The position numbers and the translations under genes are program-made. This document shows positions 21,963 to 38,323 of a stretch of DNA of 64,000 nucleotides, piece by piece. Source of the stretch: Roridomyces roridus (Eukaryota > Basidiomycota > Agaricomycetes > Agaricales > Mycenaceae). Every line of letters starts with the position of its first letter. Within the stretch, counting starts at the first letter, position 1. Location of the stretch: the NCBI GenBank assembly GCA_029378245.1, contig JARKIF010000179.1:1-64000 (forward strand). The letters run 5' to 3'. The notes below the pieces were generated by a model. That model made no database searches, was not told the DNA's origin, and saw only the letters and a list, made by a program, of their open reading frames with translations.

Positions 21963-21970
21963 TATATAAG
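21963..21970 (+). promoter_or_regulatory. TATA box of the snoRNA host gene
   Basis: TATATAAG at 21963-21970, followed about 25 bases later by a T/C-rich stretch. It lies about 75 bases upstream of the first intron donor of the snoRNA host transcript. Confidence 0.55.
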
Positions 21971-22074
21971 CGGCACAACTTTTTTTTCTTGTCCACAACC
22001 TCATCATCCGATGCGTCCATGCTCGCTCGCTCCCCCGTCCCAGGTGTGTTTCTACCTCTACTTCCCAGCGTCCT

Positions 22075-22171
22075 TCGACGTGATGAAAATTTCCAAATCT
22101 TCGCGAGCTTCCCAATGTCTTACCGGACGTGGATGCGAGGTGCTTTTTGTGTCATAGTTACACTGATCGGT
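22075..22171 (+). ncRNA. C/D snoRNA 1 (25S guide, snR63-like)
   Basis: C box GTGATGA at 22080-22086, D box CTGA at 22163-22166, with a short terminal stem CGA/TCG. The guide next to the D box (GTCATAGTTACA) is complementary to the 25S helix-69 sequence GTAACTATGAC. The fifth base from the box pairs with the second A of GTAAC. By my recollection of yeast numbering this is A2256, the snR63 target. Confidence 0.82.
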
Positions 22172-22311
22172 CTCCTTTGCTTTCCCTCTATCCTCCCTCC
22201 GCTGCCTCAAACTGACTTGTTTTCGGCTGCAGACGTGTGATGTTACCGTGCAATTGCGGGAGAGAATCATATGAATGGTGCGCGTCCTTTCCATACCTTT
22301 GCCCCCCCATC

Positions 22312-22390
22312 CCATACGATGATCTCCATAACAATTCAAACTAGAGTATCTGAGCTAAACGCTATGCTTTTTACTTCTACTCTGATCTTC
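22312..22390 (+). ncRNA. C/D snoRNA 2 (25S guide, snR78-like)
   Basis: C box variant CGATGA at 22317-22322, D' CTGA at 22350-22353, D CTGA at 22382-22385. The sequence before D' (TCAAACTAGAGT) is complementary to 25S ACTCTAGTTTGA. The fifth base from the box points to the U of GACU, the position methylated by yeast snR78 (Um2421, from memory). The D-box guide matches nothing I recognise. Confidence 0.78.
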
Positions 22391-22495
22391 TCTCCTTGTC
22401 GTCGCTATCCATCCATACCCATACTAACAGAACTCTCATCTAGATCCTTCAAGTCCGTGACCTCGTTCGATTGGGTGAGCATCCATGTCCAGTCT

Positions 22496-22584
22496 CAACT
22501 TGATGATAAATAGGAATTACCGCCTGAGCCGCAAGGCCCTGACGACAATTCCATGGCTGTATTTTTTAAAATATCCTGATTCCT
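22496..22584 (+). ncRNA. C/D snoRNA 3 (18S guide, snR77-like), first copy
   Basis: C box TGATGA at 22501-22506, D' CTGA at 22524-22527, a C'-like TGACGA, and D CTGA at 22576-22579. The D' guide GGAATTACCGC (22513-22523) is the exact complement of GCGGTAATTCC in the 18S 530 loop. The fifth base points to the U after GCGG, the snR77/SNORD65 site (yeast Um578). Confidence 0.85.
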
Positions 22585-22721
22585 TTTTCATCTCCTGCAC
22601 TCCGAGTCTTGTTTGCTGATACTGTTTCTGACAGGCCGCGCTCCGTTCTTGGTCTAACGGCGGGTTCGAGGATGCATGACGACGGGAAGCGGAAAATGTG
22701 AGCACTACACCCTCGTCTTTC

Positions 22722-22808
22722 TTTCATGATGCTATACACGACGGTCTTCGTACCTACATGCCGAAAATGCCCGCCACAGCTCATTTCTTCGGGCAACCCT
22801 TCTGATTC
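22722..22808 (+). ncRNA. C/D snoRNA 4, first copy
   Basis: C box variant ATGATGC at 22726-22732, D CTGA at 22802-22805. CACGACGGTCT (22737-22747) is complementary to 25S AGACCGTCGTG, near the sites of yeast snR69/snR71 in the peptidyl-transferase region. The D' box after it is degenerate, so the target is less certain. The guide next to the D box differs between the two copies and may be unused. Confidence 0.65.
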
Positions 22809-22907
22809 CATTATCATTATCCGCCCTATCCTCTTCACTATACTGACTTGCTTTTTGAGGTTCCTACATGGTGCACCCTCAAGCCGTGAGTATTTTGCTC
22901 TTGCCTC

Positions 22908-22996
22908 CTGCGCGATGATACAAAGGAATTACCGCCTGAGCCGCAAGGCCCTGACGACAATTCCATGGCTGTATTTTTTAAAATATACTGACTCCA
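22908..22996 (+). ncRNA. C/D snoRNA 3 (snR77-like), second copy
   Basis: C box CGATGA at 22913-22918, D' CTGA at 22936-22939, D CTGA at 22988-22991. From the 18S guide GGAATTACCGC to the A/T run before the D box the sequence is essentially identical to the first copy, while the flanking intron sequence is unrelated. Confidence 0.82.
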
Positions 22997-23110
22997 TATT
23001 CTCGTCCACCTTGACGGTATCCTTACTGACACTTTGCTCAGGTTTCCTCGTGTACCCTCCTTGTGTCCTTTCCTTGGTGACAGTGAGTCTTTCCCTGCCA
23101 TCCATTCCCT

Positions 23111-23198
23111 CTACATGATGCTATACACGACGGTCTTCGTACCTACATGCCGAAAATGCCCGCCACAGCTCATTTCTTCGGGCACCCTCTCTGATCTC
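23111..23198 (+). ncRNA. C/D snoRNA 4, second copy
   Basis: C box ATGATGC at 23115-23121, D CTGA at 23191-23194. The interval from ATGATGCTATACACGACGG to TTCTTCGGGCA is identical to the copy at 22726. It then diverges just before the D box (ACCCTCT versus AACCCTT). Confidence 0.65.
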
Positions 23199-23281
23199 TT
23201 TTCTCCTCCGCCCTTGATCACACGCTGACTTCCTTTTCTCAGATAATGTGAGCCCAGTCCGTTGTCGAATCTCTTTCATCC

Positions 23282-23377
23282 CATCACGATGATTCTCTTC
23301 AAAAAAATATCAACTAGAAGCTGTTGCTGAGCTCCGCATGTGCGGGGCGTTGATTATAATTCTTTACTCTCTGACCC
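23282..23377 (+). ncRNA. C/D snoRNA 5 (25S guide to the U24/SNORD76 target region)
   Basis: C box CGATGA at 23287-23292, D' CTGA at 23327-23330, D CTGA at 23369-23372. The D' guide ATCAACTAGAAGCTGTTG is complementary, with one mismatch to the yeast sequence, to 25S AACAGCCTCTAGTTGAT. The fifth base points to the A before G in AACAG, a position methylated in yeast (about A1449, by U24) and in human (by SNORD76). Confidence 0.78.
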
Positions 23378-23579
23378 TCCTTTTCTCTTTGCCATTTCTG
23401 TAGGCAGTATTGCTGACTTTTTCGATAGCAGGGTTGGTACTCTATGTCGATAGTTACATACTTGTCCATGTCCCAGCGACGCTTTTCGCGCCCATGGTAC
23501 TTAGAAATTGACAAATGATTTGTTTCTCACAATTGAGACCTGATAATGAATCGGTGATCGCGGCTAGACACCAACTTCC

Positions 23580-31732: not shown

Positions 31733-31904
31733 TGACGCGCGGTGATGTTTATCCGTGTTGGGGCCGCTGACGTATAAAGGATCAAAATCTGCCGAAACTT
31801 TTTTCACTCTTGCGCCGTTTGAAGAATCGTTTTCGCAGCTGTCCGCACAGGAGCCTCGTCGCTCTTCACCTCTGCTGTGGGGAAAGTCCCCGGAGATACG
31901 GAGC

Positions 31905-32129
31905 ATGTCCTCGTCCTCCCAATGGAAAGCAACCGGCCCTAAGCACGTCGGTCTGGACGAGGACGGCTGGATCCTTCTGCATGCCTCCCTTACACGGATG
32001 GCTGCTCGGTCCCTGCCACTCCGTTGCCAGTCCGAGGATGGGCCGCTCGACCAAGGCGCAGGTTGCGAAGATATGAGCAGCCTGTTGCTCGGGTGGTCCG
32101 TCCGACGTCTGGCAAACTCTTGCTCATAG
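31905..32129 (+). CDS. Possible small protein in the first exon of a snoRNA-containing transcript
   Basis: ATG 31905 gives 74 residues (MSSSSQWKATGPKHVGLDED, then GWILLHASLTRMAARSLPLR). There is no recognisable family. It lies upstream of an intron that carries a C/D snoRNA (32259-32417), so the transcript may be non-coding and this frame accidental. It is divergent from the cysteine-motif gene. Confidence 0.3.
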   Translation: MSSSSQWKATGPKHVGLDEDGWILLHASLTRMAARSLPLRCQSEDGPLDQGAGCEDMSSLLLGWSVRRLANSCS

Positions 32130-32283
32130 GCATAGATATACGATTGTTGACCCTCGGGTCTTCAACTCAACGGGGCTCACTCTCATTCGGCGCAGCAACC
32201 AATTTTTTCCCTCCCCGAACTTTGTTGTTCATCCCTTCGTCGACCGTGTTACTTCGAGGTGAGTTGGCTCTTTCCTTCCTTCC

Positions 32284-32372
32284 TTTTATGATGCGTTGGA
32301 TTTTCTTGAATTTCTTCATGGTGTATACCCTCTCGAGGGGCGGGCTCCAAACCATTGACACTTCTGACTCTC
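32284..32372 (+). ncRNA. Intronic C/D snoRNA (25S guide, snR47-like)
   Basis: It lies inside a GTGAGT...TTCTCAG intron (32259-32417). C box variant ATGATGC at 32288-32294, the same variant as snoRNA 4 in the cluster, and D box CTGA at 32364-32367. TTGAATTTCTTCA (32306-32318) is complementary to 25S TGAAGAAATTCAA, which contains yeast A2220, the snR47 site. The D' box is degenerate, so the exact nucleotide is inferred. Confidence 0.7.
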
Positions 32373-32464
32373 CTCTCCTTCTCATCGGTTCCAAATGCTG
32401 ACTGTCCTTTTTCTCAGATGAGTGTATTGAGCGTGGACGATGTGTATAGTACAAAATGAATGTA

Positions 32465-37846: not shown

Positions 37847-38323
37847 GCGGATGGATGTGCACCAAGTCGATCTACTATTCCTCTTACTTAGGATATTAGA
37901 CTGGAATGGCCATACATAATTTACGGGCGATTTGAAATGATTCCATTGCTTTTTTATACCGAGTATCAAAAAATGTACGAACTACCGACCCGTCGCCGTT
38001 CCAGACAGGCTGGGGAACGAAGACAATGGGTGCTAAGACGTTCGGTCTCTCAGACCTCCGCTTGACACTCAAACGACCACGTAGACAATCCATACGGAGA
38101 GCGTAGTCACGAGCAACATGGGGATATAGAGCAGAGGCGCCGCACGAGGTGCATTTGAAAAACTCGGGTCTTATATAGCCTGTTCGTGTGGTGGCATGTT
38201 TGGCGAATGATGGGAACCCTCGTGATTACCTTGATTGCGTCCTTCTCTCCTCGCGGTGCATTGCAGCGATACAAGCTATCCAGCATGGTTCTTTGATCGA
38301 TAACTCCTTGGTCCGCAACCAGC
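37847..38323. other. Intergenic, possible tail-anchored micro-ORF on the minus strand
   Basis: On the minus strand a TATA-like CTATATAAG (about 38172-38180) is followed by a frame PRAAPLLYIPMLLVTTLSVW that ends IVYVVV and a stop near 38060. It is strongly hydrophobic, like a tail anchor, but I can find no convincing first exon. The divergent kinase gene starts at 38324. Confidence 0.3.

Follow-up and report, generated by a model that had tools for sequence, protein, structure and literature searches.

A candidate snoRNA host gene of fungal cluster I type with one box C/D unit in each of seven introns

The closest described relatives of the locus analyzed here are the hosts of fungal snoRNA cluster I (snR78-77-76-75-74-73-72). 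The main text of PMC3596301 describes this cluster as wholly intronic in Euascomycetes, Basidiomycota and Rhizopus, its hosts having scant coding potential, with small or missing internal exons reported for ascomycete groups, and as processed from unspliced transcripts in S. cerevisiae. According to the same text, the snR78, snR75 and snR72 introns are scattered in some Basidiomycota and the snR73, 74, 76 and 77 introns are lost, and a movement of snoRNA introns between genes is proposed for fungi. The N. crassa snoRNA hosts are likened to gas5 in the sections of PMC2780460 that deal with them, and clusters I-V of that species have UHG/gas5-like hosts with short ORFs. The kind of gene is thus known, cluster I having been described as intronic and the N. 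crassa hosts as gas5-like (PMC3596301 and PMC2780460, in the portions cited), and the arrangement of one snoRNA per intron pointed out in the earlier note on this DNA is not new. Other fungi and animals already provide examples of this layout, which makes the locus a matter of good annotation rather than of surprise.

The window, that is, the whole stretch of DNA analyzed, comprises 64 kb (C89:1-64000) of a 90.8 Mb genome in 501 contigs. The host locus has a haplotype copy on C112 at 98%. Seven successive introns (22044-23431, + strand) carry one box C/D unit each. The locus is best explained, with a probability of about 0.94, as a host gene for snoRNAs that belongs to the fungal cluster I type, is transcribed by Pol II and encodes no protein. 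Splice signals, guides, conservation in allele and paralogues and the lack of a reading frame in the exons support the view, put forward in the earlier note and upheld here on sequence grounds, that a small non-coding host bears a single C/D snoRNA in each intron. Its features, all on the + strand, are the following.

21963..21969: TATATAA, a TATA-like box preceding the host transcript, as read from the sequence; retained in the haplotype copy
22044..22232: intron 1, GTGTGT...CTGAC...CTGCAG
22080..22166: snR63/SNORD46 (U46)-type C/D snoRNA, intron 1; guide GTCATAGTTAC, adjoining the D box, predicted target 25S Am2256 (yeast number)
22233..22277: host exon 2 (45 nt)
22278..22443: intron 2, with splice and branch signals
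22317..22385: snR78-type C/D snoRNA, intron 2; D' guide TCAAACTAGAGT, predicted target 25S Um2421
22444..22474: host exon (31 nt)
22475..22634: intron 3, with splice and branch signals
22500..22579: snR77-type C/D snoRNA, copy 1, intron 3; D' guide GGAATTACCGC, predicted target 18S Um578
22635..22697: host exon (63 nt)
22698..22859: intron 4, with splice and branch signals; weak GAG 3' splice site
22725..22805: snR73/SNORD35 (U35)-type C/D snoRNA, copy 1, intron 4; guide CACGACGGTCT, predicted target 25S Cm2959
22860..22885: host exon (26 nt)
22886..23041: intron 5, with splice and branch signals
22913..22991: snR77-type C/D snoRNA, copy 2, intron 5; 11 bp guide match
23042..23082: host exon (41 nt)
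23083..23242: intron 6, with splice and branch signals
23114..23194: snR73-type C/D snoRNA, copy 2, intron 6; 11 bp guide match
23243..23247: exon 7, 5 nt (ATAAT), preceded by a CTGAC/CTCAG acceptor and followed by a GTGAGC donor
23248..23431: intron 7; end moved from 23403, which gives a branch spacing like that of the other six introns
23287..23374: U95/snoR33-type C/D snoRNA, intron 7; guide ATATCAACTAGAAGCTGTTG before CTGA; type assigned from a hand alignment and the table of PMC2780460

The observed anatomy is regular. A donor GTGNGY, a branch site CTRAY and a 3' AG are present in all seven introns, the acceptor being YAG in every case except the GAG of intron 4, where the AAG at 22883 was rejected as an alternative because it would leave an exon of 2 nt. 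The C box lies 25-39 nt from the donor and 69-88 nt from the end of the D box, so that the consistent spacing claimed in the earlier note stands, albeit not its range of 60-85 nt, and its one C-box/D-box pair per intron and tiny exons of 5-63 nt are both recovered. From the end of the D box to the branch A there are 34-49 nt, and from the branch A to the acceptor 12-17 nt, ranges that cover all seven introns only with intron 7 ending at 23431, a position itself picked by that spacing. The alternative end at 23403 was rejected because the sole CTRAY within reach upstream is the CTGAC of the D box itself, and intron 7 thus probably ends at 23431. Intron 3 has another CTGAC, 3 nt away from the acceptor, and exon 7 may be skipped in splicing. 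When the exons are joined (with a start at 21995 and the acceptor at 23403 assumed), stops occur in all three frames, in line with the earlier claim that they share none. We infer a transcription start about 30 nt downstream of TATATAA; a scan for bacterial promoters and terminators upstream of the host gave nothing, the bacterial models being uninformative for a fungus.

Along the host the guides follow the order snR63, snR78, snR77, snR73, snR77, snR73 and U95-type. As in the cluster I described in PMC3596301 (main text), there is one snoRNA per intron of a non-coding host, with tiny internal exons (there described for ascomycete groups) and the relative order 78-77-73, found here as 78-77-73-77-73 in the introns of one gene. 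Unlike that cluster, this host adds a snR63 and a U95-type guide and has the snR77-snR73 pair twice, and snR76, 75, 74 and 72 are absent from it, each of the seven introns having another guide. In N. crassa, CD24 (snR77) and CD31 (snR73) are likewise intronic and both reside on chromosome VI, whereas CD33 (snR63) is found on chromosome III and CD28, of the U95 type, on chromosome II (PMC2780460, in the part concerned). The S. cerevisiae snR72-78 polycistron also has snR78, snR77 and snR73 guides, but it is unspliced and, going by the text of PMC3596301, lacks snR63 and U95-type guides. In the open-licence literature, with PMC3596301 covered in its text, neither this exact set of guides nor a duplicated snR77-snR73 pair was found described.

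A C box (RUGAUGA) and a D box (CUGA) are present in all seven units, the first base or bases of the C box deviating from RU in several of them, and the expected base occupies the fifth position in six of the seven, over four guide types, on a working version of yeast rRNA. The guide of intron 1 forms 11 bp with A2256, the numbering anchor, at the fifth position. With the guides of introns 2 (12 bp) and 3 (11 bp) that position is taken by U2421 and by the U in 18S GCGGUAAUUCC, respectively (the 18S was used without computed numbering). The three guides that the earlier note had assigned to snR77 (18S), snR78 (25S) and snR63 (25S) are thus all in place. It had also listed introns 4 and 6 as units, and left them without a guide; both are now of the snR73/U35 type, with 11 bp on C2959 at the fifth position and a degenerate D' box in both copies (CGTA in copy 1). 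snR77-Um578, snR78-Um2421 and snR63-Am2256 are published guide-target pairs (PMC5199042, as far as its site list was covered), and the sites predicted here coincide with the published sites of snR63, snR78, snR77 and snR73 (PMC5199042 and PMC8307265, likewise in part).

The Rfam scan proposed in the earlier note gave matches to the same families, all of them below threshold: no family reaches its gathering score anywhere in the region, and lax thresholds name snR78, snoR77Y/Afu_300/SNORD49 and snoR442. Scores for snR78, snoR77Y, Afu_300, SNORD46 and SNORD35 range from 12.4 to 22.3 bits, short of gathering scores of 36-52. In intron 2, snR78 scores 21.7 bits (gathering 48), and in intron 3 Afu_300, SNORD49 and snoR77Y score 22.3, 21.5 and 19.5 bits, all below gathering. 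In intron 1, UGUCAUAGUUACACUGA is identical at 17 of 17 positions to the SNORD46 consensus (82-98), which nonetheless yields 14.2 bits (gathering 40) and is outscored by DdR4 (17.2) and snoR442 (16.8) over mostly one common stretch. The weak matches of intron 4 to sn3071 (12.6 bits) and SNORD35 (12.4) have the stretch CACGA-GGUCUUC in common, and the top score in that intron belongs to an unrelated minus-strand sR41 (12.8). Because the scores lie below gathering, family names are used here as types, on the basis of guide identity. An annotation based on Rfam would consequently miss the whole gene; a survey of this kind in Pleurotus ostreatus lists only seven snoRNAs (PMC5040776, in the part consulted).

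Yeast rRNA served as the reference, the assembly having yielded no rDNA: neither RF00002 (39 of 3113 candidates scored) nor a probe or a pattern for 25S gave a match there, so that the assembly used either lacks rDNA or has it masked or skipped. The yeast sequences were a working version, with the 25S numbers anchored on Am2256, which hence provides no independent check of itself, as opposed to 2421, which is independent. With this anchor, a guide in the paralogous hosts falls on G2815 (snR38) and one in a unit on C46 on G2288 (snR75), and the agreement of 2421, 2959, 2815 and 2288 with the known sites speaks for the anchor as well as for the working sequence. Among 5000 shuffled bodies, 336 gave at least 10 bp, 84 at least 11 bp and 23 at least 12 bp against the rRNA stretches used, with boxes of up to two mismatches accepted for shuffled and real bodies alike. 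Two rRNA patterns gave nothing in viral contigs, and an rRNA pattern in the genome contigs matched four contaminant contigs, in which a search for eight rRNA landmarks per contig returned one 11-mer (L011) and one 6-mer (L012), in unexpected places. Introns 1, 3, 4, 5 and 6 also had 11 bp matches in these non-rRNA contigs; since the contigs are useless as rRNA, the guide scan on them was set aside. The four (L010-L013) come from bacterial MAGs, yet resemble eukaryotic 28S at their ends, near the R2 insertion site, and they perhaps contain R2-like retroelement-28S junctions from host contamination.

The guide of intron 7 is the one assignment that has changed. Aligned by hand to yeast 25S GAACAGCCTCTAGTTGATA, it forms 6 bp, an A.C mismatch at -8 and then 11 bp, and its fifth base is an A numbered 1867 when counted back from Um1888, the yeast snR62 site (PMC5199042, site list in part). 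The N. crassa table of PMC2780460, as covered, gives 26S Am1845 for CD28 (snoR33/U95), Um1866 for the snR62-type CD22, and Cm1418 and Am1430 for U24. The offset between N. crassa and yeast is 22 for both sites (Am1845/A1867, Um1866/Um1888), and the U24/SNORD76 label given to AACAGCCTCTAG in the earlier note is therefore wrong, the guide pairing near the Am1845 equivalent rather than at Cm1418 or Am1430. It would instead fit the U95 site, with the equivalent of N. crassa Am1845 as the candidate target base. Uninterrupted pairing of this guide reaches 11 bp at most, next to a CTGT box and with a different target base, and Rfam returned unrelated low scores only for this intron.

With the guide at the U95 and not at the U24 site, the link in content to GAS5 falls. 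To our knowledge, no guide is common to the two genes; orthology, judged by snoRNA content, is thus not supported, and there is no evidence of common descent. The resemblance proposed in the earlier note persists in the layout, with one C/D snoRNA per intron and spliced exons without a conserved frame as in vertebrate GAS5/UHG (mentioned in PMC2780460), and not in the guides.

The intron and C/D array is not chance. A composite pattern of donor, C box, D box, branch and acceptor, in strict and loose forms written after the introns had been seen, matched all seven introns (those of introns 3 and 7 ending at other AGs, 22670 and 23428) and only one other place on either strand of the 64 kb (32259-32417), with no match on the minus strand. 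When the region was shuffled 500 times with dinucleotides preserved, the strict form averaged 0.0 matches and the loose form 0.006, with a maximum of 1, and in 20 shuffles of the whole window the loose pattern on the plus strand had a mean of 0.5 and a maximum of 2, figures that flatter a pattern devised post hoc. The loose pattern also matched six of the seven units in the haplotype copy (L007), three in one paralogous host (L008) and two in the other (L009). The additional match in the window (32259-32417, +) is an intron-like C/D unit directly 3' of an RNase MRP match (31812-32192) and before what looks like an ATG exon. Its TTGAATTTCTTCA can pair with yeast 25S 2217-2229, around Am2220, the snR47 site, and its D' box is poor. 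On the minus strand, 37971-38148 is an H/ACA match to S_pombe_snR35 at 36.8 bits (gathering 35).

C/D bodies are observed to be spared relative to their flanks between haplotypes and between paralogues. In the haplotype copy, the seven bodies differ by 2 mismatches and 2 gap columns in 565, the remaining intron sequence by 15 mismatches (10 of them in intron 1) and 6 gap columns in 613, and exons 1-7 (start 21995 assumed), over 262 columns, by 6 mismatches and 3 gaps; mismatches thus amount to 2 of 565 columns in bodies versus 21 of 875 in all else (Fisher p=0.002). Within the gene, the bodies of introns 3 and 5 are identical at 75 of 79 aligned positions and those of introns 4 and 6 at 80 of 82. 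Identity in the flanks of these pairs is 56-66%, with shuffle averages of 47-53%; the values of three of the four flank pairs are also reached among 200 shuffles, and those of introns 4 and 6 on the 3' side (66%) exceed all 200, so that some flank homology may remain. Between exon 4 and exon 6 identity is at shuffle level. By sequence comparison, introns 3+4 and 5+6 go back to an old duplication of the snR77-snR73 pair, a relation that the earlier note, correct as to the seven units, had missed.

Two paralogous host genes, L008 and L009, lie on C1 in opposite orientation, some 45 kb apart. Segments 3962500-3968500 and 4009500-4015500 form an inverted, diverged (~80%) duplication of host gene plus flanks, and neither has a haplotype copy among the candidates, all six of which were scored. 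Between the two genes the bodies are identical at 372 of 387 positions (96%) and the rest at 1168 of 1542 (76%). Their units are of the snR63, snR77, snR38 (two) and snR73 types. A BLAST comparison of the present host with L008 aligns snoRNA bodies and some intron flank but no exon, the remainder being a 19-nt pyrimidine-rich piece at E=0.32. The snR77-type body of L008 (1863-1942) is identical to that of L009 at 80 of 80 positions and has CGACGA instead of TGATGA as its C box. Both genes also have a 250-nt intron (L008 2305-2554 and its L009 counterpart), with 212 of 256 aligned columns identical in long identical blocks, in which no C/D pair was seen and no Rfam match is listed; it perhaps holds another small RNA. 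Elsewhere, a genome-wide snR75 pattern gave three matches (control 2), one exact and credible and two with one mismatch. A snR75-type C/D unit (L017, C46:724569) occupies an intron directly upstream of an apparent coding start, the latter read by eye, in agreement with the scattered introns of PMC3596301 (main text). The snR74 pattern gave three one-mismatch matches in the genome (control 2), none with a C box convincing by eye.

By analogy with known C/D biology, the host would be transcribed by Pol II and its transcript spliced; the excised intron lariats would then be debranched and trimmed back by exonucleases to the C/D snoRNP, which would guide 2'-O-methylation of one rRNA base, leaving the spliced exons as by-products. 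It is very improbable that the short exons instead encode a small peptide with the snoRNAs in the introns of its gene, an arrangement that has its precedent in the snR75-like unit apparently beside a coding start: the spliced exons contain stops in all three frames, differ between haplotypes to the extent given above, and find no BLAST alignment in L008. An unspliced polycistron, cut between its snoRNAs by RNase III and with splice signals as mere relics, would recall the unspliced cluster I transcripts of S. cerevisiae (PMC3596301, main text). It is nonetheless highly unlikely, for donor, branch site and acceptor are kept at similar distances in every unit, and likewise in six introns of L008 picked by eye.

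Decay is also to be considered, and we deem it very unlikely that the copies, in part or as a whole, are decaying snoRNA pseudogenes of little functional value. The extra copies are redundant, the intron 7 guide contains a mismatch, the C box of the snR77 copies in L008 and L009 is weak, and the snR63-type guide of L008 has no clean CTGA beside it, its L009 equivalent having one. Nevertheless, bodies are spared relative to flanks in all three comparisons, of haplotypes, paralogues and tandem duplicates.

We tentatively put forward a further possibility, on balance a doubtful one, namely that cluster I is a growing platform in this lineage: it would have gained the snR63 and U95-type introns (on other chromosomes in Neurospora) and duplicated a two-intron snR77-snR73 unit, with units in common with two further hosts that also hold snR38, and with snR75 moved to an intron of another gene. 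If so, the dose would be raised for guides of the decoding site (Um578) and of the peptidyl transferase centre (Cm2959, Gm2815). Together with the diverged paralogous hosts, the duplicates provide a natural experiment in which bodies are constrained and exons are free, and which may be used to trace the movement of snoRNA introns between genes.
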